The translations under genes and the position numbers were made by a program. A stretch of 34,270 bases of DNA from Bacilli bacterium (GTDB taxonomy: Bacteria > Bacillota_I > Bacilli_A > RF39 > UBA660): contig JAFUBW010000005.1 of assembly GCA_017459965.1 (NCBI GenBank), forward strand, positions 1-34,270, written 5' to 3'. The notes under the pieces are model-generated. The model was not told where the DNA came from and did not search any database. It saw only the letters and a program-made list of their open reading frames with translations. Positions 1 through 34,270 of this stretch are shown one piece after another. Within the stretch, counting starts at the first letter, position 1. The number at the start of each line of letters is the position of its first letter.

Positions 1-111
1 GGGGGGCTATCCTCTGTTTTTCTGTGCTAATGAGAAACCGAGGCATGAGGGTCCGAAAAATGTGCATAATCGCGCATATACCCCCCATCTTTTGAGAAAG
101 TAGGTGATAAT
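1..111. other. cos-like packaging region before terS (repeated at 33778-33888)
   Basis: This gene-free stretch lies between the HNH endonuclease and the small terminase, the usual place of a cohesive-end site in HNH-terminase phages. It starts with GGGGGG (1-6) and has CCCCCC at 81-86, an inverted G6/C6 pair. Just before the C tract is an imperfect dyad, ATGTGC-ATAATC-GCGCAT (60-77), unusually GC-rich for this genome. Dyads of this kind are where terminases and HNH nickases act. The nick positions cannot be read from sequence. Confidence 0.6.
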
Positions 112-441
112 ATGGTAAAAATCAAAGCAGTTAATTTTAAATCGTTGAAAGAATTGTTTAATGAGATGGATAATGAAAAAGGTATGTTAGGATTAGCTTT
201 AATCAAAGAAGCAGAATTCATGAAAACAACTTTAACAAAATTAAAGAGAGAAATGAATAAAGGTGTAGTTACGGAGATGTCTCAGGGTAAGTACAGTATT
301 GATAGAGCCAATCCAGCACTTACTCAATATAATGCTATGATAAAAAATTATCAATCTACAATAAAACAAATAAATGATTTATTACCTAAGGATACTCCAG
401 AGGGTGCTTATGATCCTTTTGACCAGGATGATTTAAGTTGA
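112..441 (+). CDS. terS: Terminase small subunit (P27 family-like)
   Basis: The small terminase subunit recognises phage DNA and loads the large subunit for packaging. The 109-aa product has the helical, lysine-rich character of P27-type small terminases, with the phrase NPALTQYNAMIKNY near residues 64-77 followed by ITQ-like helix and LLPKD near residue 90, and an acidic tail (FDQDDLS). It starts with ATG after AAAGTAGGTG. Its stop overlaps the TTG start of terL, giving translational coupling. A full second copy lies at 33889-34218 because the window repeats. Confidence 0.85.
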   Translation: MVKIKAVNFKSLKELFNEMDNEKGMLGLALIKEAEFMKTTLTKLKREMNKGVVTEMSQGKYSIDRANPALTQYNAMIKNYQSTIKQINDLLPKDTPEGAYDPFDQDDLS

Positions 442-2120
442 CATATATAGAAGAATATAACAATTGGATAAAAGCAAATCCAAATAAGGTATGTAAAAAA
501 GTAAAAACTGTTTATGCACGAGTAGTAGAAGATTTGAAGACACCTAAAGTTGTGTCTTTTTATAATAAACTTACTGGTGAAACTGAAACACATACTTACA
601 TATTTGATGAAAAGAAAAGTTTAAAATGTATTAATTTTATTGAAAGATATTGTAGACAGTCTAAAGGTAAATGGGCTGGCAAACCTCTTAAGCTAGAATT
701 ATGGCAGAAAGCTTTCCTTCAAACAGTATTTGGATTTGTTGATAAAGATACTGGCTTAAGAAAATACAAAAAAGCACTATTATTTGTTGCAAGAAAAAAT
801 GGGAAATCTGCATTAGACTCTGGTGTAGCAAATTACATGCTTACAAAAGATGGTGAAGGTGGCGCAGAAATATATTCAGTAGCAACTAAAAGAGAACAAG
901 CTAAGGTAGTATGGGAAGAATCAAAAAGAATGATTAAGAAGTCTCCTAGCTTAAATAAAAGAATTAGATGTTTAATTGGTGGAATATATTATGACGCTAC
1001 GGATTCTTTTTTTAGAGCTTTAGCAAGTGATAGTAACTCATTAGATGGTTTAAATTCATCATTAGTTATATGTGATGAGGTCCATGCTTGGAAAGATAAA
1101 AACTTAATGGATGTTATGTATGATTCAATGAGTGCAAGAGAACAACCTCTATTACTTGAAACTTCCACAATGGGAACTGTAAGGCAAAATGTATTTGATA
1201 TTGAATACGATTATGCAAGTCAAGTGATAGATGGAACAGTACCAGATGAGATATTATTTCCTGTTATCTATGAATTAGATGAAGAAAAGGAATGGTTGGA
1301 TGAAGAATGTTGGATGAAAGCAAATCCAGCATTAGGAACCATTAAATCAATTAAAGATATTCGTGAAAAGGTTGAAAGAGCTAAAGCAAATCCAATAGAA
1401 TTAGTTAATTTATTATGTAAAGACTTTAATGTACGACAAAATTCAGTAAATGCTTGGTTGACATTTGAAGATTTAAATAATGAGGAACTTTATTCTGATT
1501 GGAAAGATACATATTGTATTGGTGGATGTGACTTATCAAGTACAACCGATTTAACATGTGCTACATTGTTAGGTGTTAAAAACAAAAAGATTAGAATTAA
1601 ACAAATGTATTGGATTCCTACAAATCTATTAGAAAAAAAGGTAATAGACGACAAAATTCCATATGATAAATGGTTAAAAAATGGTTGGTTACGATTAAGT
1701 GGTGATTCAAAGATAGATTATCATGATGTTACTAAATGGTTTTTGGAACAAGTCCAGGAATTTGATTTAAGACCACTTTGGATAGGTTATGACAGTTGGA
1801 ATGCTCAATTTTGGTGTGATGAAATGAAACAATATGGGTTTCAGATGGTTGAGGTTAGACAAGGATATAAAACTGAATCAGCGCCATTAAAACAAATGAA
1901 AGCAGATCTAATGGATAAGAAAATAAACTACAACAATAATCCAATTTTAAAGTGGAACTTATCAAATGTAGTTGTTAAGATGGATGATAATGAGAACATA
2001 ATGCTATCAAAAGAAAAATCACGTCAAAGAATAGATGGTGCAGCAAGTTTAATGGATGCTTATGTAATATATGTCAATAAGCAACAAGAATATTTAAATT
2101 ATATTAGTGAGGAGGTATAG
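438..2120 (+). CDS. terL: Terminase large subunit (ATPase and nuclease)
   Basis: This motor subunit pumps DNA into the prohead and cuts the concatemer. The 560-aa protein has the Terminase_1 Walker A motif ARKNGKS near residues 118-124 and Walker B VICDEVHAW near 208-216. The C-terminal RNase H-like nuclease carries acidic residues in GCDLSSTTD (about 362), GYDSWNAQ (about 450) and RIDGAASLMDAY (about 531). It begins with TTG, overlapping the terS stop by 4 bases. Length is normal for the family and no motif is missing. Confidence 0.95.
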   Translation: MTYIEEYNNWIKANPNKVCKKVKTVYARVVEDLKTPKVVSFYNKLTGETETHTYIFDEKKSLKCINFIERYCRQSKGKWAGKPLKLELWQKAFLQTVFGFVDKDTGLRKYKKALLFVARKNGKSALDSGVANYMLTKDGEGGAEIYSVATKREQAKVVWEESKRMIKKSPSLNKRIRCLIGGIYYDATDSFFRALASDSNSLDGLNSSLVICDEVHAWKDKNLMDVMYDSMSAREQPLLLETSTMGTVRQNVFDIEYDYASQVIDGTVPDEILFPVIYELDEEKEWLDEECWMKANPALGTIKSIKDIREKVERAKANPIELVNLLCKDFNVRQNSVNAWLTFEDLNNEELYSDWKDTYCIGGCDLSSTTDLTCATLLGVKNKKIRIKQMYWIPTNLLEKKVIDDKIPYDKWLKNGWLRLSGDSKIDYHDVTKWFLEQVQEFDLRPLWIGYDSWNAQFWCDEMKQYGFQMVEVRQGYKTESAPLKQMKADLMDKKINYNNNPILKWNLSNVVVKMDDNENIMLSKEKSRQRIDGAASLMDAYVIYVNKQQEYLNYISEEV

Positions 2121-4048: not shown

Positions 4049-5245
4049 ATGGATAGGCTAAAAGAAATTGAAACTCGTATGGCTCAAATCCGTAATGAAG
4101 TTGAATCTACTGAAGATATTACAAAAGTAGAAGAACTTAAAAAAGAAGTTGAAGCTTTAAAAGAGGAAAGAAAAGCTATAGAGGAAACAAAAAAACAAAA
4201 AGAAATAGCAGAAAAACTTGAAGAAAAAAGTTTAGATGCAAAAGAAATCGTTAAGGAGGAAAGAAAGATGGAAGAAAAGAAATTTGATTTATCAAGCAAA
4301 GAATATAGAAGTGCTTGGGCAAAAAAATTAATGAATTTATCAGAAGATAAATTTACAGAAGACGAAAAAAGAGCTTTAGGAGATGCAGTAACTACAACAG
4401 CTACTACTTTTGTTGCTAGTACAGCAGATACTCAAGGTATTAATAACGGTGGATTATTTATTCCAACAAGTGTAAGAATGGATCTTATGGAATTAATATC
4501 AGAACAATCACCAATTTTCAGAGATATAAGAAAATTGCAGGTATCTGGTAACATTGATTTACCTTATTTATTTGCTTCAGATGATGCTAATTGGTATACA
4601 GAATTAACTGATACAGTTAATGAAGGGCAAGAATACAGAAATTTACAACTTACAGGTTGGGAACTTGCTAAAGATATTGTTATAACTTGGAAGTTAGAAG
4701 AAATGGCAGTAGAGTCATTTATTGATTTCATTTTAGATGAATTAAATAACAAAATGGGTAAGGCAATTATCACTGCAGTTATTTATGGTGATGGAAACAA
4801 TAAGCCAACTGGTGTAACTACAGGATTGACAGCTATTACAACAGGTTCAAATGTAATTGAAAGAATTTTAAATACATATAAAGGTCTTTCAAAAGATGCA
4901 AGAATTGGTGCAAAAGTTTATATTTCTACAGATGTAAATTTGGAAATTGTTTCTTATAAAGACGGAAACAACAATTACCCATTCTTAAATGGTGTACCTG
5001 CAGTAAGTGGATTTTCAATTGAAGTTGATCCATATCTAACAGGTGATGATATTGTTGCTGGTAACATGAGAAATTATATCCTTAATGAAGTTACAGCACC
5101 AAGAGTAGATTATGAAAAGACTGTAAAAGGTCGTAAAGCAATCTATGGTGGATATGCTATCTATGATGGTAAAGCAAGACCAGGATATTTTACTCTTGGA
5201 CAAAAACCAGCATCTCAAAGCAGCGATGCCAATGATGGTGTTTAA
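4049..5245 (+). CDS. Major capsid protein (HK97 fold) with N-terminal scaffold domain
   Basis: The shell protein of the head. The 398-aa product opens with about 75 residues of charged coiled coil (repeated EEVKKEVEA-like heptads), the delta domain that serves as scaffold and is cut off by the protease. The HK97 fold follows, including GGLFIPTSVRMDLMELISE and a typical capsid C terminus with GGYAIYDGKARPGYF. AGGAGG precedes ATG 4049. Inside the gene, AAGGAGG (4254-4260) stands 7 bases before an in-frame ATG at 4268, so a shorter, scaffold-less form might be made. Confidence 0.93.
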   Translation: MDRLKEIETRMAQIRNEVESTEDITKVEELKKEVEALKEERKAIEETKKQKEIAEKLEEKSLDAKEIVKEERKMEEKKFDLSSKEYRSAWAKKLMNLSEDKFTEDEKRALGDAVTTTATTFVASTADTQGINNGGLFIPTSVRMDLMELISEQSPIFRDIRKLQVSGNIDLPYLFASDDANWYTELTDTVNEGQEYRNLQLTGWELAKDIVITWKLEEMAVESFIDFILDELNNKMGKAIITAVIYGDGNNKPTGVTTGLTAITTGSNVIERILNTYKGLSKDARIGAKVYISTDVNLEIVSYKDGNNNYPFLNGVPAVSGFSIEVDPYLTGDDIVAGNMRNYILNEVTAPRVDYEKTVKGRKAIYGGYAIYDGKARPGYFTLGQKPASQSSDANDGV

Positions 5246-5889: not shown

Positions 5890-6247
5890 AGGTATTTTAG
5901 AAATAGCTGATATATTAGATGAATATTCAAGTGATATTCAAGAAACTATTACTGAAAGAGCAATAAAAGTAGCAAAACAAGGAGCTAGCGATTTAAAAGC
6001 CAATTCACCTAAAAGAACGGGTGATTATAAAAAAGGTTGGAGAGTAAAAACAACAAAGGGCAAAGGATTTGTTAACTGCATAATACATAATGCTACTGAT
6101 TATCAATTAACTCATTTATTAGAAAAACCACATTTAAAAAGAAATGGTGGTTTAACTACACCAAAAGTTCATATAGCACCTGTAGAAGAAAAAAGTATCA
6201 AACAATATGAGCAAGAAGTAATAAATGTAGTTGAAAATGGAGGTTAA
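5879..6247 (+). CDS. HK97 gp10-like tail-completion protein
   Basis: The 122-aa protein shows the HK97 gp10 family pattern: an N-terminal helix, KANSPKRTGDYKKGWRV near residues 40-56, a hydrophobic HNATDYQLTHLLE segment, and then HxxPxEE (HIAPVEE) near residue 100. These proteins act at the head-tail joint. The ATG overlaps the preceding gene by 11 bases and the next gene starts 2 bases later. Confidence 0.85.
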   Translation: MASKGILEIADILDEYSSDIQETITERAIKVAKQGASDLKANSPKRTGDYKKGWRVKTTKGKGFVNCIIHNATDYQLTHLLEKPHLKRNGGLTTPKVHIAPVEEKSIKQYEQEVINVVENGG

Positions 6248-6574: not shown

Positions 6575-7150
6575 ATGAGTAAAAATAAAGTAAAATTTGG
6601 ATTGAGTAATGTACATGTTGCACCAATAACAGTAAATGATGATAATACATTTACATACGGAACTATAATTCCAATTCCAGGTGCAGTAAATTTAACTCTT
6701 GATCCAAGTGGAGAAGATGTTGATTTTAAGGCCGATAATATTCCTTATTTTAATGATTCTGCTAATCAAGGATACGAAGGAAGTCTAGAACTTGCATTAG
6801 TACCTGATAGCTTTAGAGAAAAAATATTAGGAGAATATATTGATAATAATGGAGCATTCTTTGAAAACCGTGATGATGAAATTAAACCATTTGCTTTAGG
6901 ATTTCAAATTGATGGAGACAAATCCAATAGAAAGTTCTGGTATTACAATGTAACTGCTAAAAGACCTGCTACAGGTTCAAAAACAGTTGAAAATACAAAA
7001 GAGCCTGTTACAGAAACTCTAAATATAAAAGCATTAATAAGACCAGAAGATGGTGAAGTTAGAACATTCTTAGAACCAAACGAAAGCAATACAACAGCAT
7101 ATAATGGTTTCTTTGAATCCGTATATGTAAAAGTACCAAAATCAGTTTAA
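6575..7150 (+). CDS. Major tail tube protein (phi13-type)
   Basis: The 191-aa product is the main tube subunit of the non-contractile tail. Features are the N-terminal KFGLSNVHVAPIT, the PGAVNLTLDPSGE strand and the central GYEGSLELALVPD loop, all typical of phi13-type tail tube proteins. A strong hairpin terminator follows at 7157-7203, as expected for a gene needing high molar amounts. The tail chaperone genes that usually follow are absent here; see 32658-33195. Confidence 0.9.
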   Translation: MSKNKVKFGLSNVHVAPITVNDDNTFTYGTIIPIPGAVNLTLDPSGEDVDFKADNIPYFNDSANQGYEGSLELALVPDSFREKILGEYIDNNGAFFENRDDEIKPFALGFQIDGDKSNRKFWYYNVTAKRPATGSKTVENTKEPVTETLNIKALIRPEDGEVRTFLEPNESNTTAYNGFFESVYVKVPKSV

Positions 7151-7156
7151 TCATAG

Positions 7157-7203
7157 CTGCTCTTATGAGTAGCAAAAAGGCTACTCATAGGGGTAGTTTT
7201 TTT
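7157..7203 (+). terminator. Strong intrinsic terminator between tail tube and tape measure genes
   Basis: A 17-bp stem (7157-7173 with 7180-7196, three G-T wobbles, loop AAAAAG) is followed by seven T (7197-7203). This is the most stable hairpin I found in the structural operon. It lies only 6 bases after the tail tube stop, and tape measure expression must pass it. It probably lowers downstream transcript level or is overcome by antitermination. Confidence 0.85.
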
Positions 7204-7226
7204 AGTATTCATAAGGAGGTGGAATA

Positions 7227-9587
7227 ATGGCTAATAAAAATATAAAAGGTATAACAATAGAAATAGGTGGAGAAACAACAAAATTAGAGAAAGCTCTAAA
7301 GAATGTTAATAGTGTTGTTTATTCAACCAATAATGAGATTAAACAATTAAATCAAGCATTAAAATTAGATCCAAAAAACACAGAATTACTATCTCAAAAA
7401 CAAGAAGCTTTAAAAAAGAATATTCAAGCTACAACAGAAAAATTAAACACATTAAAAGAAGCTCAAAGACAAATGGGTGCTTATAATTCGTTAACAGAGG
7501 AACAAAAAGAAAATTATAGAGCATTATCACTTGAGATAACAAAAAGTCAAACTGCATTAAAGAAAATGAATAGTGAACTAAAAACATCTACTTCAGTTGA
7601 CTTATCTAAATTAAAAGATGGACTTAAAAAAGTTGGCGATGTTGCAGCAGAAGTAACTAAAAAAATGATGCAAGTAACAGCCGCAGTAAGCGGTGCATTG
7701 GCGGGGCTTGTGACTGCAGGTGTAAAATCTTATGCCGATTTAGAACAAAATCTAGGTGGTGTTGAGACATTATTCGGAGATAGTGCAAATAAAGTTGTTG
7801 AAAACGCAAAAAAAGCCTTTGAAACAGCAGGTGTTAGTGCTAATGAATATATGGCAGGTGTTACATCATTTAGTGCATCATTATTACAATCACTAAGTGG
7901 TGATACTGATAAAGCAGCAGATGTTGCAGATATGGCATTTAGAGACATGTCGGATAATGCCAATAAATTTGGTACTGATATGCAATCAATACAAAACGCA
8001 TATCAAGGATTTGCTAAACAAAATTACACCATGTTAGATAATTTAAAACTTGGATATGGCGGAACAAAAGAAGAAATGGCAAGATTATTGGCAGATGCGC
8101 AAGAAATAAGTGGAGTTAAATATGACATTAAAAATTTAAGTGATGTATATAATGCAATCCATGTAATCCAAGATAAATTAGGCGTAACAGGTACAACCGC
8201 TGAAGAAGCTGAAAAAACAATAAGTGGCTCTGTATCATCTATGAAAGCAGCATTTGATAATTTTCTAAATGGTAGTGGTAGTCCAGAACAACTTTCAAAA
8301 ACAATAACTAATGTATTTAGAAATGTTAGTAATGCTATAAAAAAAATAGCACCCGATATTCTTAAAGGCGTTGTATCATTGGTTCAAGAATTAATTCCAC
8401 AAATAGTATCTTTAATTCTTGAAACAACTCCACAATTATTAGATGCTGTAACTAATATGATTGATAGTTTACTTGAAATGTTAAGCAACGATACAGAAGG
8501 TATATCAAACACAATAACAGTTTTAATTGATAAAATTGTACAATTTATAACTGAAAATTTTCCTAAAATAATACAAATAGGTTTACAATTAATAATTTCT
8601 TTAGTTAAAGGTATATCAGATAGTATTCCGACAATAATACCAGCTATAGTGCAGTGTATCCAAACAATTATTAATGTTATATTAGAAAATTTACCTTTAA
8701 TATTAGAATCAGGTATAAAAATTTTAGTTGAGTTAATAAAAGGTATTGTTGATGCTATACCACAATTAATTGAAATGTTGCCAACAATAATAGAAACAAT
8801 AGTAAAAATATTGATAGAAAATTTACCTTTAATATGGGATGCTTCGGTACAAATAATGTTTGCATTGATAGATGGTTTAATAAAGTCATTACCTCAATTA
8901 GCAATAATGATACCTAAAATAATATTAACAATAGTTAAAGGTATGATAGAGGGATTACCAAAGTTTATTGAAAATGGTGGACAAGTAATTTCTAGTATCA
9001 TAAGCGGTATAGGTTCTATGCTAGGTACTTTAAAACAAACAGCAGGACAAATAGTATCAACAATAAAAGATAAAATAACAAGTTTACCAGGAGAAGCTTT
9101 ACAATGGGGTAAAGACATGGTTGAAGGTATTGCTAATGGTATAAAAAGTGCTATAGGAAAAGTTGGAGAAGCAGCATCTAACGTTGCTAGTAGGATTAGA
9201 AATTTTTTACACTTCTCAAGACCAGATGAAGGTCCATTAAGAGAATATGAAACATGGATGCCAGACTTTGCAGAAGGATTAGCTAGAACACTTAATAATT
9301 CACGTGATATTATGGCAAAAGCAAGTAAAAATCTATCTGGTGAAATAAGAGATAATTTGTCTATAGATGGAATTGTAAGTGATACAAGAGCCGCAATGAG
9401 ATCATTAAATAGTAATATAGCCGTTTCATTAAATCCTACAATAAATCCAAGTGCAGCAAACGAAATGGAATACTCAAGATTAATAAATGCATTCAAAGAG
9501 GCTTTAAAAGACACAAAGGTTGTTATGAATGGTAGAGAAATGGGAAATTTTGTATCTGATGTAGTAGAAAAGGTGGTTTATTCATGA
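7227..9587 (+). CDS. Tape measure protein
   Basis: The 786-aa protein sets tail length and helps DNA cross the host membrane. It begins with a long coiled coil (residues 1-130, KALKNVNSVVYSTNNEIKQL-type heptads), then a TMP domain (ETLFGDSANKVVENA and DMSDNANKFGTDM). Residues about 380-600 are hydrophobic tandem helices with repeats of the type ILENLPLILESG...IPQLIEMLPTI. The C-terminal part contains FLHFSRPDEGPLREYETWMP, a phrase common in tape measure proteins. SD is AAGGAGGTGG. The gene is short for the family, implying a rather short tail. Confidence 0.93.
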   Translation: MANKNIKGITIEIGGETTKLEKALKNVNSVVYSTNNEIKQLNQALKLDPKNTELLSQKQEALKKNIQATTEKLNTLKEAQRQMGAYNSLTEEQKENYRALSLEITKSQTALKKMNSELKTSTSVDLSKLKDGLKKVGDVAAEVTKKMMQVTAAVSGALAGLVTAGVKSYADLEQNLGGVETLFGDSANKVVENAKKAFETAGVSANEYMAGVTSFSASLLQSLSGDTDKAADVADMAFRDMSDNANKFGTDMQSIQNAYQGFAKQNYTMLDNLKLGYGGTKEEMARLLADAQEISGVKYDIKNLSDVYNAIHVIQDKLGVTGTTAEEAEKTISGSVSSMKAAFDNFLNGSGSPEQLSKTITNVFRNVSNAIKKIAPDILKGVVSLVQELIPQIVSLILETTPQLLDAVTNMIDSLLEMLSNDTEGISNTITVLIDKIVQFITENFPKIIQIGLQLIISLVKGISDSIPTIIPAIVQCIQTIINVILENLPLILESGIKILVELIKGIVDAIPQLIEMLPTIIETIVKILIENLPLIWDASVQIMFALIDGLIKSLPQLAIMIPKIILTIVKGMIEGLPKFIENGGQVISSIISGIGSMLGTLKQTAGQIVSTIKDKITSLPGEALQWGKDMVEGIANGIKSAIGKVGEAASNVASRIRNFLHFSRPDEGPLREYETWMPDFAEGLARTLNNSRDIMAKASKNLSGEIRDNLSIDGIVSDTRAAMRSLNSNIAVSLNPTINPSAANEMEYSRLINAFKEALKDTKVVMNGREMGNFVSDVVEKVVYS

Positions 9588-10282
9588 ATAATTATGTAAT
9601 ATTTAAAGGAATAGATAGTAGAACAATTAGAGGCTTAATCATACAAGAACTTCCTTCTATTGCTAAACCTAAAATGAGGGTATCAGAAACAGTTATAGAT
9701 GGTGTAGATGGATCATATATAGAAGAATTAGGATATGAAAGTTATGACAAAACTCTTAAAATAGGTCTTACAAGAAACTATGATATAGATGAAGTTATTG
9801 ATTACTTTAATGGAGAAGGTTCAATTGTCTTTAGCAATGAACCAGATAAATACTATAAAGTAAAAATAATAAATCAAATTAATTATGAAAGATTAGTAAG
9901 ATTTAAAGAAGCAACTGTTAAAATAAGAACACAACCATTTAAATATCTTTACCAAGAACATAAACAAGTATTTAATAATCCAACAGAAAGTATAACAATT
10001 ATAAATAATGGCTTTTTAGATTCTAAACCAATAATTAAATTAGAAGGTAGTGGCACAATCGAATTTAAGATTGATAATGTCGCTATTTTTAGTTATACAT
10101 TTCCAAATAATGAATCAGAAGTATTTATTGATAGTGATAAGCAAGATGCTTATTTAGGTAATGTATTAAAAAACAGAAATATGAATGGTGAATTTCCATT
10201 ATTAAAAAGAGGTAAAAACATTATTACATGGACTGGTACTATTACAAAAATAGAAGTTATTGCTAATAGTAGATGGTTATAA
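9584..10282 (+). CDS. Distal tail protein (Dit, SipTail family)
   Basis: The 232-aa protein forms the hexameric hub ring between tail tube and tip. The N terminus (DSRTIRGLIIQELPSI, then VDGVDGSYIEELGYESYD) is the typical Dit beta-barrel, and a C-terminal galectin-like part follows (from about residue 130). Its ATG overlaps the tape measure stop (ATGA). Order TMP-Dit-tip is canonical. Confidence 0.88.
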   Translation: MNNYVIFKGIDSRTIRGLIIQELPSIAKPKMRVSETVIDGVDGSYIEELGYESYDKTLKIGLTRNYDIDEVIDYFNGEGSIVFSNEPDKYYKVKIINQINYERLVRFKEATVKIRTQPFKYLYQEHKQVFNNPTESITIINNGFLDSKPIIKLEGSGTIEFKIDNVAIFSYTFPNNESEVFIDSDKQDAYLGNVLKNRNMNGEFPLLKRGKNIITWTGTITKIEVIANSRWL

Positions 10283-18758: not shown

Positions 18759-19898
18759 TTATAAATTATCCAATAAATCAACTATTTCATCTTGAATAGT
18801 AGGGAATAAATGCATATAAGTTCGCTGCATGACTTCGACAGTATGTCCCATCCTATTTGACATCATTAAAAAGAATTTTGCAGTGTCTATTTTCATGTTT
18901 TTAGTCTTGCTAGTATTAATATACTCATTTATCAATAAACTAACGTGAGAATGTCTAAATTCGTGAATAGTGATAGGTTTTAACTCGGCTTTTTTAAAAT
19001 ATATATTTTTTTTACGAGCAATTGTTGTTTCGGGAAGAAATCTACTATTACCAAATACAAACCAATCTTCATTAAAATCAGTATATTTAGAAACTTCATT
19101 TTTATAATCAAATAATATTTTTCTCAATGAAGTACTCATTTTAATTTTTCTATTTTGACTATTCTTAGTATTAGTTATTTTATATAAATCAGAAGTTTTT
19201 ATTGAAAGAGTTTTATTTACGATTATTTGATTGTTTTCAAAGTCAATATCATTCCAAGTAAGAGCTTGAACTTCTCCTTTTCTCATCCCTGTAAAATATA
19301 AGAAAGTAAAAAATACATTAAACATTGAATCATCAACTACAGATATAAATTGTTTAAATTGTTCATAAGTTATATATCTTATTTTTTCAGAATCTTTTAT
19401 AACTTGATCATCAGTTTTTTCAAATCGTCCACATATTGCAACTGCATTTAAAGTTATTCCATAATTTTTCATAGCATAATCAAATATACATTTTAAAACA
19501 TTATAAATTTTATTCATACAACCAATAGAAAGTTTTTTATTTTCTATATAGTCCTTCCAATTCTTAATATCATTGATATTTATATCATCTATATACTTAG
19601 ATTTAAAAAAATCAAATATATGATTATCATAATCTTTCTTATATGAATAATAAGTTGATTCCTTTCTCTTGGTTTTAAGATTGTCAAAATAGTCATTAGA
19701 AACTAAAGTAAATTCTTTGTGTAAAGGATTATCTCGTTTCATTAGAAAAAGTCTTTCTGCTTCTTCAGCATCTTTTTTTGTTAAATAGAGTTGAGAGAAT
19801 TTTTGCTTCCTTTCACCATTACAATTCTTGTAGTATGTAATAAATTGCCATTTTCTCCCGTCTTTAGTCTGTTTATTTTTATCTACTTGTCTTACCAC
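18759..19898 (-). CDS. int: Tyrosine integrase
   Basis: The 379-aa enzyme integrates and, with a helper, excises the phage at attP. It has an N-terminal arm-binding part (KDGRKWQFITYYKN), a SAM-like core-binding domain (about 65-170) and a catalytic domain with Arg in TGMRKGE, HEFRH (about 312-316), MGH (about 351) and the nucleophile Tyr in RTYMHL (about 361). It starts with GTG, with AGGGGG ten bases before. It points toward attP, as usual. Confidence 0.93.
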   Translation of the reverse strand: MVRQVDKNKQTKDGRKWQFITYYKNCNGERKQKFSQLYLTKKDAEEAERLFLMKRDNPLHKEFTLVSNDYFDNLKTKRKESTYYSYKKDYDNHIFDFFKSKYIDDININDIKNWKDYIENKKLSIGCMNKIYNVLKCIFDYAMKNYGITLNAVAICGRFEKTDDQVIKDSEKIRYITYEQFKQFISVVDDSMFNVFFTFLYFTGMRKGEVQALTWNDIDFENNQIIVNKTLSIKTSDLYKITNTKNSQNRKIKMSTSLRKILFDYKNEVSKYTDFNEDWFVFGNSRFLPETTIARKKNIYFKKAELKPITIHEFRHSHVSLLINEYINTSKTKNMKIDTAKFFLMMSNRMGHTVEVMQRTYMHLFPTIQDEIVDLLDNL

Positions 19899-25109: not shown

Positions 25110-25952
25110 ATGATTAAAGAAGAAATAAAAGAAAAAACCAATGATTTTATAAACGATGAAAGATTAGATGAAAAGTCTAAAAGAACTATTGTCGATTATA
25201 GAAACGATGTAAAAAAACTAATAGACTTCTTACCAGAAGAATTTTCTTTAAATAAACAATTGATGTTAGATTTTAAAGATTATTTAGATAACAAAGGCTA
25301 TTCAGTAAGTTCAAAAAATAAGTATGTTGTTGTTATTAATAAATTCATGAGATATCTAGGACATGATGAGTGTATTTTAAAAAAATATAAGAAACAAGAA
25401 AAATCTTCAATTGATGATCCTATCTGGGAACAAGAACATAAAAGAATGCTTAGATGGGCAAAGTCAATGGGAATGATGGATATGTATCTGATAATGAAAA
25501 TATTTGCTCATTGTGGAGCTAGAGTAGATGAATTAAAGTTCTATACAGTAGAAAGCTTAGAAAGTAATTACATTAAAAGAGTGTACAACAAAGGAAAAGA
25601 AAGAACATTAATTCTAACAAATGAATTGAAAAGAGAATTAAAAGCCTATTGTAAAGAAAACAAAATCAAGTCCGGTTATATATTCAAAAGTCCGGTTAAG
25701 GATGGACAAATGCTTAACAATTCAACAATATGGCGAAGATTAAAGAAAATAGCTAAAAAGGCAAAAATAAATCCAAGCAAAATACATCCTCATGCATGGC
25801 GACATTTATTCGCAAAGAAATGTAAAGAAAATGGAATTGATTTAGACGAATTAAGAGATATTTTAGGACACAACGATATTAATACAACAGCAATATATAC
25901 AATGACATCTAATAGAGAGAAAAGAGAAAAATTAGAAAGGATAAGATATTAA
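25110..25952 (+). CDS. Second tyrosine recombinase (XerC/D-like)
   Basis: The 280-aa protein has a SAM-like N-terminal domain (VDYRNDVKKLIDFLPEE, VSSKNKYVVVINKFMRYLG) and a catalytic domain with Arg in CGARVDEL (about 147), HAWRH (about 228-232), LGH and Tyr in AIYTMTS (about 263). It has all catalytic residues, lacks the arm-binding domain of the phage integrase and lies in the early operon. It may resolve replication multimers, invert or exchange DNA, or act as a regulator. Confidence 0.85.
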   Translation: MIKEEIKEKTNDFINDERLDEKSKRTIVDYRNDVKKLIDFLPEEFSLNKQLMLDFKDYLDNKGYSVSSKNKYVVVINKFMRYLGHDECILKKYKKQEKSSIDDPIWEQEHKRMLRWAKSMGMMDMYLIMKIFAHCGARVDELKFYTVESLESNYIKRVYNKGKERTLILTNELKRELKAYCKENKIKSGYIFKSPVKDGQMLNNSTIWRRLKKIAKKAKINPSKIHPHAWRHLFAKKCKENGIDLDELRDILGHNDINTTAIYTMTSNREKREKLERIRY

Positions 25953-30755: not shown

Positions 30756-30784
30756 TTTAAATTTGAGAATAAGTGGAGGTTGTA

Positions 30785-31213
30785 ATGGAATTATTTGAAT
30801 TAATAGAAGAAATAGAAAACACAAAATCGGATATACAATACTTCAGTGATGAAAAAGAAAGATTAGAAATAAGAGCAGGATTAAAAGCAACAGATTATTC
30901 AAAAGAAAGAACAACAGGTGGAAGTGGCAATTCAAGAGAAGATACATTATTAAAATTATCACAGATGAGTATGGATTTAGACGATGCAACAAAAAAATTG
31001 GACAACCTATCAAAATTAGCAGATAGAAAATATAATGTTTTTAGAAATTCAAATGATTATGAAAAACAAATATATATTGAAAAAAAATTAAAGAAATGGA
31101 GTAATGCAAAAATATCAGCTAAGCATAATGGAATAAGTAAAAGTTCAATATATAGAATAATAGAAAAATTTGAAAAAAAATTAAATATTGGGAAAAAATG
31201 GGAAAGTAGGTAG
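30785..31213 (+). CDS. Late transcription regulator with sigma-like helix-turn-helix
   Basis: The 142-aa protein has an N-terminal coiled coil and a conserved-looking ATDYSKERTTGGSGNSREDTLLKL segment, then a C-terminal helix-turn-helix (ISAKHNGISKSSIYRIIEKF) like sigma-70 region 4 or ArpU-type activators. As the last early gene just before the late operon, it is the likely late activator. ATG 30785 follows GGAGG; GTG 30773 is rejected. Its coding end holds the presumed late promoter. Confidence 0.75.
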   Translation: MELFELIEEIENTKSDIQYFSDEKERLEIRAGLKATDYSKERTTGGSGNSREDTLLKLSQMSMDLDDATKKLDNLSKLADRKYNVFRNSNDYEKQIYIEKKLKKWSNAKISAKHNGISKSSIYRIIEKFEKKLNIGKKWESR

Positions 31214-31221: not shown

Positions 31222-31271
31222 GGTATCATGAGAGAATTAGAGAAGCACACTCACTCTCATACCCCTTTTTT
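31222..31271 (+). terminator. Terminator right after the late promoter
   Basis: ATGAGAG (31228-31234) pairs with CTCTCAT (31254-31260), extended by GGT/ACC (31222-31224, 31261-31263), and is followed by CCTTTTTT. It could end early transcription behind the regulator. If the late promoter is correct, it also stops late RNA after some 50 nt unless antitermination occurs. Confidence 0.75.
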
Positions 31272-31280
31272 ATTCTTATG

Positions 31281-31609
31281 TTTGGTACTAGCTTGATGCT
31301 AGTACACTGATGATATATAAAAGCCACCGAGTTTTTACATATTAAGTTATGGTTTAGAAAGTCTCGGAAGATGCATAACTTGCATTAAAAAAACTAAGAC
31401 GATGAGGAGGCAGCCTTTATATCGTTGGTGTAGTATCATTAAGTTGATACTGTCTCTTGCTGCTTTAGGAGACCTTTCATACTATCTTATAGGTAGCATT
31501 ATGATTAAAATAAAAATATTATAAAATTTTAGTCGTAATGGTACTTATAATAGGTACTGGATGAGAGTTGCTCCAATCAACTCTCTACTTATAGATTGGA
31601 GATGTAAGT
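31281..31609 (+). ncRNA. Large structured RNA, 5' part
   Basis: No credible frame covers this stretch, but it is full of local stems: GTACTAGC/GCTAGTAC (31285-31305), CCGAG/CTCGG (31327-31367), ATGCA/TGCAT (31371-31385), ACGAT/ATCGT (31399-31425), AGTATCA/TGATACT (31432-31451), GTCTC/GAGAC (31452-31473), TCATA..CTATC/GGTAG..TATGA (31477-31504) and a pseudoknot (31563-31601). Loops also match each other: AAGTTATG (31344) with CATAACTT (31374), AGGCAGC (31408) with GCTGCTT (31459). Size, density and phage/tRNA-like context resemble ROOL or GOLLD RNAs; the class is not proven. Confidence 0.6.
31563..31601 (+). promoter_or_regulatory. Pseudoknot covering the Shine-Dalgarno of the homing gene
   Basis: GAGAGTTG (31563-31570) pairs perfectly with CAACTCTC (31578-31585). 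The 7-nt loop CTCCAAT (31571-31577) is the exact complement of ATTGGAG (31595-31601), which contains the GGAG that would serve ATG 31610. The fold would lower translation of the endonuclease. Confidence 0.7.
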
Positions 31610-32104
31610 ATGAAAGAAATTTGGAAAGAAATAGAAGAATACGAAGGATTATACTGGATTAGTAATATAGGTAGAGTAAAATCTAATAGAAAAATATTAA
31701 AACCAATAGAAGGCGAATATTTAAAAGTTGGATTATCAAAAAATGGTATTCAAAGAACAATTACAATTCATAGATTAGTAGCAAAAGCATTTGTGGACAA
31801 TCCTAACAAATACAATTTTGTAAATCATAAAGATGAAAATAAACATAACAATATATATACAAATCTAGAGTGGTGTACAAATGTATATAATATGAATTAT
31901 GGTGAAAGAAACAAAAAAGTTAGCAAAAATCAATCTAAGTATAAAATAATACAAAAAGATAAACAAGGTAATATTATTAAAGTTTGGGACAATATATGGG
32001 AACTAACACACAATACTAACTATAAAAAAGATAATATTTCTTGTTGTTGTCGTGGTAAATACAAATATGCCTATGGTTATAAATGGGAATATAGCACTTT
32101 GTAG
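31610..32104 (+). CDS. NUMOD4-HNH homing endonuclease
   Basis: The 164-aa product has an N-terminal NUMOD4 motif (WKEIEEYEGLYWISNIGRVKS), an HNH domain (IHRLVAKAFVDNP, NHKDENKHNNIYTNLEWCT) and a C-terminal NUMOD1-like DNA-binding part (GNIIKVWDNIWELTHN). Such enzymes cut empty alleles and copy their gene into them. It lies inside a structured RNA, not in a protein gene, so the RNA gene is the likely target. GGAG lies 8 bases upstream of the start but in a pseudoknot. All HNH residues look intact. Confidence 0.9.
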   Translation: MKEIWKEIEEYEGLYWISNIGRVKSNRKILKPIEGEYLKVGLSKNGIQRTITIHRLVAKAFVDNPNKYNFVNHKDENKHNNIYTNLEWCTNVYNMNYGERNKKVSKNQSKYKIIQKDKQGNIIKVWDNIWELTHNTNYKKDNISCCCRGKYKYAYGYKWEYSTL

Positions 32105-32293
32105 GTGCTGTACTGATAATATAGTTTGAAGTCTTTAGTTCAACTAAAAATAGTATATATTGTTGGTACAGTACTTATAAGAGTACGGAAATCTCGCAAT
32201 TAGAACAAAATATATTCATAAAAACTCCTAATATTACCTTTTTCTACATTGGTGCGAGACATGTGGTCTATGTGAGGTTTAGGGACTACAATA
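32092..32293 (+). ncRNA. Large structured RNA, 3' part
   Basis: Beyond the homing gene the folding pattern resumes: AGCAC/GTGCT (32092-32109, over the stop codon), GTACTG/CAGTAC (32110-32115, 32169-32174), AGTTTGAA/TTCAACT inside it, GTACT/AGTAC (32171-32186), TCTCGC/GCGAGA (32192-32197, 32254-32259) and TGGTC/GACTA before 32290. Together with 31281-31609 this makes about 530 nt. It ends where the tRNA-like element begins, so RNase P cleavage at 32293/32294 could form its 3' end. Confidence 0.55.
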
Positions 32294-32405
32294 AATAAAT
32301 TGGTGTAATGGATAGCATACTAGGTATATTTACTATAATGGTTAATACAAGTTATTAATCAGGTTAAATACCCTAGTGGTATGGGTTCAAATCCTGTATT
32401 TATTT
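32294..32405 (+). tRNA. tRNA-like RNA with enlarged anticodon arm and no CCA
   Basis: Acceptor AATAAAT (32294-32300) / ATTTATT (32398-32404) is 7/7 and all A-U. The D arm is GTGT-AATGGATA-GCAT (32303-32318) and the T arm ATGGG-TTCAAAT-CCTGT (32381-32397). U8, A14, A15-U48, G18 G19, T54 T55 C56 and A58 are in place. The anticodon stem CTAGG/CCTAG (32320-32324, 32372-32376) encloses 47 nt rather than 7, with an inner hairpin TGGTTAATA-CAAGT-TATTAATCA. No U33-anticodon loop is visible, so decoding is doubtful; a tRNA mimic is more likely. Confidence 0.6.
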
Positions 32406-32407
32406 TG

Positions 32408-32432
32408 GAACATAGAAATATGTTCTTTTTTT
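32408..32432 (+). terminator. Terminator after the tRNA-like element
   Basis: GAACATA (32408-32414) / TATGTTC (32419-32425) with a GAAA tetraloop is followed by seven T. It would end the structured RNA transcript. The tail chaperone and terminase genes lie downstream on the same strand. Confidence 0.85.
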
Positions 32433-33206: not shown

Positions 33207-33437
33207 ATGAAATATTTAGTAAGAGCATTAGAAATATATAAATTAAAAAATATAAGAGATAACGAATTAAATAAGATACCAGAAATAGGTTATGAATGGG
33301 AAGTAGATAAAGAAAGATTAGATGTATTATTAGGAAATAATAAACATAAATGTGCATTTGTTGAATTAGTACAAAAAGAAACTAAGACAGTAGAAAAAGC
33401 TACTAAACCTAAAAAGAATGTAGAAAAAAGAAAATGA
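33207..33437 (+). CDS. Small late protein (76 aa)
   Basis: The protein (MKYLVRALEIYKLKNIRDNEL, EIGYEWEVDKERLDVLLGNN) is typical of short genes found before packaging HNH genes in Firmicutes phages. It has a lysine-rich tail (KPKKNVEKRK). SD is GGAGG. The role is not known; the stop overlaps the HNH start. Confidence 0.6.
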   Translation: MKYLVRALEIYKLKNIRDNELNKIPEIGYEWEVDKERLDVLLGNNKHKCAFVELVQKETKTVEKATKPKKNVEKRK

Positions 33438-33775: not shown

Positions 33776-33888
33776 CAGGGGGGCTATCCTCTGTTTTTCT
33801 GTGCTAATGAGAAACCGAGGCATGAGGGTCCGAAAAATGTGCATAATCGCGCATATACCCCCCATCTTTTGAGAAAGTAGGTGATAAT

Positions 33889-34218
33889 ATGGTAAAAATC
33901 AAAGCAGTTAATTTTAAATCGTTGAAAGAATTGTTTAATGAGATGGATAATGAAAAAGGTATGTTAGGATTAGCTTTAATCAAAGAAGCAGAATTCATGA
34001 AAACAACTTTAACAAAATTAAAGAGAGAAATGAATAAAGGTGTAGTTACGGAGATGTCTCAGGGTAAGTACAGTATTGATAGAGCCAATCCAGCACTTAC
34101 TCAATATAATGCTATGATAAAAAATTATCAATCTACAATAAAACAAATAAATGATTTATTACCTAAGGATACTCCAGAGGGTGCTTATGATCCTTTTGAC
34201 CAGGATGATTTAAGTTGA
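33889..34218 (+). CDS. terS: Terminase small subunit, second copy by window overlap
   Basis: Identical to 112-441; part of the terminal repeat and not a separate gene of the genome. Confidence 0.9.
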   Translation: MVKIKAVNFKSLKELFNEMDNEKGMLGLALIKEAEFMKTTLTKLKREMNKGVVTEMSQGKYSIDRANPALTQYNAMIKNYQSTIKQINDLLPKDTPEGAYDPFDQDDLS

Positions 34219-34270
34219 CATATATAGAAGAATATAACAATTGGATAAAAGCAAATCCAAATAAGGTATG
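34215..34270 (+). CDS. terL: Terminase large subunit, first codons only (window end)
   Basis: Identical to 438-493. The frame starts with the same TTG and is cut by the window edge. Confidence 0.9.
   Translation, partial: MTYIEEYNNWIKANPNKV

Follow-up and report, generated by a model that had tools for sequence, protein, structure and literature searches.

The window, by which we mean the whole stretch of 34,270 nucleotides that was analysed, carries a structured phage RNA which is well supported as three tandem copies of an undescribed module, downstream of which come a conserved 3' domain, a degenerate tRNA and a terminator (Table 1). In our preferred reading, to which we give a probability of roughly 0.4, the array would act on the late transcript as a co-transcriptional control element, with module folding setting the use of terminators or gene starts.

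Table 1. Features of the array and of the divergent module copy (positions are those of the window; HP, hairpin).
Feature	Position	Strand	Parts	Basis
Terminator-like hairpin ATGAGAG/CTCTCAT plus ACCCCTTTTTT	31228-31271	+	between upstream gene and array	from sequence
Module I	31285-31450	+	HP1 31285-31305; central stem 31306-31317 with 31418-31429; HP2 31433-31450; insert of about 100 nt	homologues via model R1 in L025, L078 and L079; included in alignment A1
Spacer hairpin GTCTC...GAGAC between modules I and II	31452-31473	+		identical in L025, L023, L063, L067, L071 and L077-L079
Module II	31479-31558	+	left core 31488-31499; 14-bp central stem; right core 31538-31550; HP2 arm to 31558	model R1, 52.5 bits, E 1.7e-10
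Kissing-loop lock of the HNH ribosome-binding site	31563-31609	+	hairpin A 31563-31585, loop CTCCAAT 31571-31577; hairpin B 31587-31609, loop GATTGGAGA 31594-31602 containing Shine-Dalgarno GGAG	design recurs in L146, L147, L152 and L070
NUMOD4-HNH homing endonuclease gene, 164 aa	31610-32104	+		Pfam NUMOD4 1.1e-11; PHROG HNH 2.6e-37
Module III	32090-32186	+	HP1 32090-32112; central stem 32112-32123 with 32156-32167; HP2 32171-32186	model R1, 44.7 bits, E 1.6e-8
Conserved 3' domain	32187-32289	+	helices UCUCGC/GCGAGA and GUGGUC/GACUAC	8 relatives
Degenerate tRNA	32293-32406	+	acceptor AAATAAA/TTTATTT; D-arm; T-arm GGTTCAAATCC; long anticodon-arm insertion	from sequence
Intrinsic terminator GAACAT-AGAAAT-ATGTTC-TTTTTTT	32408-32432	+		from sequence
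Fourth, divergent module copy	7148-7234	+		model R1, 42.8 bits, E 5e-8

An exact repeat of 493 bases at the two ends of the window (1-493 = 33778-34270) indicates that this is probably a complete circular or terminally redundant phage genome, either a circular phage or a replicating prophage of about 33.8 kb; the contig was binned with a 1.06-Mb bacterial genome. The array sits between a gene for a 146-aa protein (30773-31213) and the packaging region, which includes an HNH gene at 33434 and, across the circle join, the terminase gene (438-2120). In the related phage L030 the gene at the equivalent relative position matches PHROG 36, a transcription-regulator family, from which we infer that the array probably opens the late region, of which the locus would be the leader. 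Tyrosine recombinase genes are present at two sites of the window, one confirmed by Pfam (25110-25952) and one recognised by reading (18759-19898).

The non-coding sequence amounts to approximately 330 nt (31281-31609) and 190 nt (32105-32293) on either side of the NUMOD4/HNH reading frame. When the two parts were joined, the resulting 518 nt gave a predicted fold of -149.8 kcal/mol versus -110.9 +/- 4.9 kcal/mol for shuffled sequences (z = -8.0, 0/100), in agreement with the earlier note, which had described a large structured non-coding phage RNA split by an HNH gene. That note had taken it for a single ornate RNA, a view which gave way on comparison with relatives having similar flanking genes, for which IMG/VR and a single host-family genome were the sources (L025, L023 and L024, then L063, L067, L071, L078, L079 and L077). 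The comparison resolved the RNA into one module repeated three times, its ends conserved and its insert often different. As far as their sequence extends these phages all lack the HNH gene with the exception of L077, which carries it. In L063, L071 and L078 a different hairpin stands ahead of an identical CCCCTTTTTATTC. More distant phages have the module one to five times, and single modules occur elsewhere, close upstream of scaffold-type genes. The fourth copy in the window lies between a major-tail type gene (6575-7150) and the gene at 7227-9587, a site shared with L040 (6737) and L043 (9510); its central stem continues into T7 and its arms repeat. This copy may perhaps act as an attenuator. 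A classical attenuator was doubted for the module, as the terminator hairpin was clear of HP2 in the cases read (L065, L101, L110).

A total of 69 non-redundant module copies from phage contigs were compared. Copies from the first homologues and those recovered with model R1 in host genomes had identical architecture, consisting of a freely covarying central helix of 14-15 bp flanked by the cores UAUAGGUAGCAU and AUGGUGCUUAUAA, whose conservation is overstated by selection since exact core patterns were used in part to collect the copies, and of an apex which takes any insert from a few nucleotides up to a whole tRNA. The inner stem was 95.7% paired versus 57% when left and right halves were swapped between copies, a covariation which is unaffected by the core-pattern selection except that one collection step required some inner pairing. 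Among the inner-stem cells 92 were G.U and 7 were A.C, an excess which demonstrates that pairing is selected in the RNA of the sense strand. The earlier note had proposed covariation among homologues as a check, and the result was strongly positive: in alignment A1 (58 sequences) 94.9% of cells were paired, 13 of the 14 central-stem pairs had changed on both sides, and the covariation score was 0.522 compared with 0.192 for shuffled alignments (0/500).

The cores can pair in two ways. In the three-hairpin fold, the left core and its own 5' arm form HP1, the right core and its own 3' arm form HP2, and the loops of HP1 and HP2 are complementary to one another. In the rod fold, the left core pairs with the right core around a fixed G.G mismatch to give approximately 25 bp with this one mismatch, and 96.0% of cells were paired. 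The G.G mismatch was found in 64 of 69 copies, and in the three-hairpin fold both Gs fall in HP1 and HP2. HP1 of at least 5 bp could be formed in 66/69 copies and HP2 in 56/69; permutation controls gave means of 55.4 and 48.8, respectively, which are high because the arms resemble each other between copies, and shuffled arms gave means of 36.8 and 21.3. Complementarity of the HP1 and HP2 loops is conserved, for example CUUGAU/AUUAAG in module I and UUGUAG/UUAUAA in module III. These contacts, together with that of the HNH lock (CUCCAAU/AUUGGAG), are the loop complementarities of the earlier note which held up; its GGCAGC/GCUGCU contact proved not to be conserved, as the insert with GGCAGC is absent from L025, L078 and L023. 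The predicted energy gap between rod and three-hairpin fold had a median of 4.1 kcal/mol, and in predicted folding of growing prefixes of the L030 copy HP1 appeared first and the rod later. Two folds which are conserved, mutually exclusive and nearly isoenergetic suggest that the module may be a two-state switch. The rod is the predicted minimum in most cases, so that HP1 and HP2 may be only transient.

Of 291 host-family genomes, 23 carried the module according to model R1. In a class-wide draw of 395 genomes there were nine carriers, all nine belonging to that same family. Wherever flanking head, tail or terminase genes could be recognised, modules run in the same direction as these genes, placing them in late operons. 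They take one of two positions, either downstream of portal or minor-head genes with scaffold-type genes following, or with a regulator-type gene on one side and the terminase region on the other; many of these neighbour-gene assignments were made by reading the protein and a few by HMM match. A blastn search with a 69-nt module consensus returned weak matches only (E 2-6) and a plasmid search returned none, while blastn of the region against phages returned HNH genes and that of the L023 RNA mainly tRNA genes. A pattern scan of genome contigs gave three matches, none backed by model R1 at E<=0.01. No description of the module was found in the literature searched, which covered the minority of subscription papers. 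The module is well supported as an RNA family which covaries strongly and has no Rfam entry, with a new array architecture, and it is to the RNA class and this architecture that our claim of novelty applies.

Judged from the sequence, the HNH gene is a separate passenger in the array. It belongs to the NUMOD4/HNH homing endonucleases by family match, and L077 has an HNH gene at the same site at which L078 has none, with flanks and much of the array common to both, which bears out the earlier suggestion that the RNA carries its own homing gene. The stop codon TAG (32102-32104) falls within module III, in the region of the HP1 loop, the 5' arm of this HP1 overlapping the final HNH codons. A stop within the left core UU(A/G)UAG was observed in the window phage, L145 (same contig as L077), L148, L152 and L070, and a second HNH-like family likewise ends in the left core (L026, L027, L028, L090). 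One array of L070 (minus strand, approximately 8540-10060) combines five modules with two HNH-type genes that differ from each other, the second of these genes starting right after the right core TTATAAATG and ending in left core TTATAG.

The Shine-Dalgarno sequence of the HNH gene is locked by loop-loop pairing of CUCCAAU with AUUGGAG (31571-31577 with 31595-31601), the first stem in the window phage being an 8-bp helix, GAGAGUUG/CAACUCUC. This pairing is kept with different stems in L146, L147, L152 and L070, and in L149-L151 both sides have changed to CCCAAAU/AUUUGGG in a compensatory manner. No such pair was seen by eye in more distant HNH relatives. From this covariation, the CUCCAAU/AUUGGAG pair appears to be a regulator of the HNH gene and a regulatory RNA in its own right, by which the gene would be kept silent.

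In eight sequences, both helices of the 3' domain were paired in 96/96 cells with two compensated pairs, which gives moderate support for their conservation in what is a shallow sample. Among viral contigs, only phages of this group showed the signature of this domain. The downstream element, described in the earlier note as tRNA-like, was confirmed by eye as a tRNA remnant, though ARAGORN reported no gene and RF00005 gave no match at E<=10. It is near-identical in four phages (the window phage, L024, L025 and L063) and occupies the site of a real tRNA in relatives (tRNA-Ile in L023; also L067 and L071). With respect to terminators, 15 of 41 arrays had an intrinsic terminator within 200 nt downstream, compared with 0.9 expected from shuffles, and none was detected within that distance in the other 26.

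Inserts are diverse. The insert of module II is a tRNA-Glu in L025, a tRNA insert is also present in L097, and tRNA remnants were seen by eye in L071, L083 and L096. The insert of an L089 module (oriented 5107-5213) contains a T-arm and then a D-arm, and the L119 insert is alike; both resemble a permuted tRNA in which the module stem takes the place of the anticodon stem. An alternative conserved spacer, GTGAGCGA.CGGGGTTTCACGTTGGTCATGACC..., probably a further RNA cassette, takes the position of the HNH gene between modules II and III in L023 (~1883-1965), L024 (1-75) and L071 (oriented ~5970-6060). In the sister phage L079 a full ROOL nanocage RNA (RF03087; 7168-7759, 170 bits, E 3.2e-36) sits just after module III and before the 3' domain with the modules intact, L078 being the uninterrupted relative at this junction. 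In our best explanation, RNA cargo and homing genes, the HNH gene among them, would land at apices and module junctions.

The array itself gave no match to ROOL or GOLLD RNA, which the earlier note had considered. The ROOL and GOLLD covariance models from Rfam had no match in the window at E<=10 nor, at E<=5, in the HNH-free homologues L025, L023, L024, L063, L067 and L071, though the same tool finds the ROOL of L079. In accordance with the note's failure to see a group I intron core or split gene, there was no Rfam match to group I or II introns in the region or in HNH-free relatives, the flanking reading frames are complete on both sides, and relatives differ within the array such that no clean intron is apparent; the only intron-type match, a 16-nt chance match to Plastid-petD at 34115, is outside the region. 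A HEARO or OMEGA RNA with IscB was also rejected, since there was no HEARO match and the protein, at 164 aa, is NUMOD4-HNH and not RuvC-HNH.

Placement in late operons with terminators nearby is consistent with control of the late transcript during its synthesis. As RNA polymerase moves on, HP1 would fold first, and the right core would then either kiss HP1, giving the three-hairpin state, or invade it, giving the rod. We infer such switching, with a factor binding the conserved cores perhaps as the partner which sets the choice, and an output in which this choice would decide whether a terminator, gene start or cleavage site close by is used and so separate segments of the late transcript.

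A rather unlikely alternative is that rod and tRNA inserts are processing sites for a double-strand RNase or RNase P, the cuts separating late mRNAs, releasing tRNA cargo and leaving protective end hairpins. The location of modules between late genes, the long double-stranded RNA with a variable tip and the tRNA inserts all agree with this, but cleavage would require neither an invariant core nor a fixed G.G, nor that the arms of HP1 and HP2 be conserved. More doubtful again is a free non-coding RNA which acts in trans, produced between two terminators and assembled by kissing loops, perhaps into a ROOL- or GOLLD-like multimer. While terminator-like hairpins flank the array on both sides, kissing-type complementarity is present and ROOL occurs within the same array in L079, this reading has against it the absence of an Rfam match, the single modules close upstream of scaffold-type genes and the lack of a demonstrated promoter between the first terminator and module I. 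It is very improbable that the inverted repeats serve recombination or homing at the level of the DNA (attC-like arrays) with the RNA fold as a by-product, since the preference for G.U over A.C and the co-orientation with late genes point to RNA and no recombinase was seen beside the arrays, in spite of the variable-tip hairpins and interchangeable spacers, the HNH frames of two families ending exactly in the left core and the second tyrosine recombinase (25110-25952).

A broader and more tentative proposal is that of a new modular viral RNA class, in which two-state switch arrays in late transcripts would at the same time offer a platform where exchangeable RNA cargo can dock (tRNAs, permuted tRNA-like domains, ROOL) and would be spread or remodelled by homing endonucleases with frames fused to the module core. 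These data describe a new RNA family with two exclusive conserved folds at recurrent late-operon sites in phages of one bacterial family, and give ROOL a new genomic context as an insert in a module array for which an uninterrupted relative is available. Both lead to testable predictions on the division of late transcription and on the exchange of large RNAs and homing genes.

Several known systems resemble parts of this array. ROOL is a large structured phage RNA of unknown function with loop-loop contacts and tRNAs nearby (PMC12286853), features which are all found here, but the present RNA has no sequence or covariance match to it and is built of repeated modules which also occur singly. 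GOLLD has a conserved 3' region and a variable 5' region which sometimes holds tRNAs (PMC12286853), and in these respects it is similar, whereas a repeated module has not been described for GOLLD. The putRNA of HK022 consists of two stem-loops of approximately 70 nt near the early promoters of a lambdoid phage (PMC9378689). Both are phage leader RNAs made of stem-loops ahead of terminators; however, the RNA described here folds as three hairpins or a rod, has a large variable insert, lies in late operons and belongs to another host group, and the module does not have the antiterminator form of putRNA (two stem-loops, ~70 nt, early promoter). Antiterminators of the putRNA type bind RNA polymerase and so promote read-through of terminators. 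putRNA is a possible analogue in function only, the feature observed here being the position before terminators. In T4, homing genes have ribosome-binding sites covered by hairpins. The HNH gene of the array likewise has RNA structure over its Shine-Dalgarno sequence, which is formed here instead by two hairpins with loop-loop pairing and compensatory changes.
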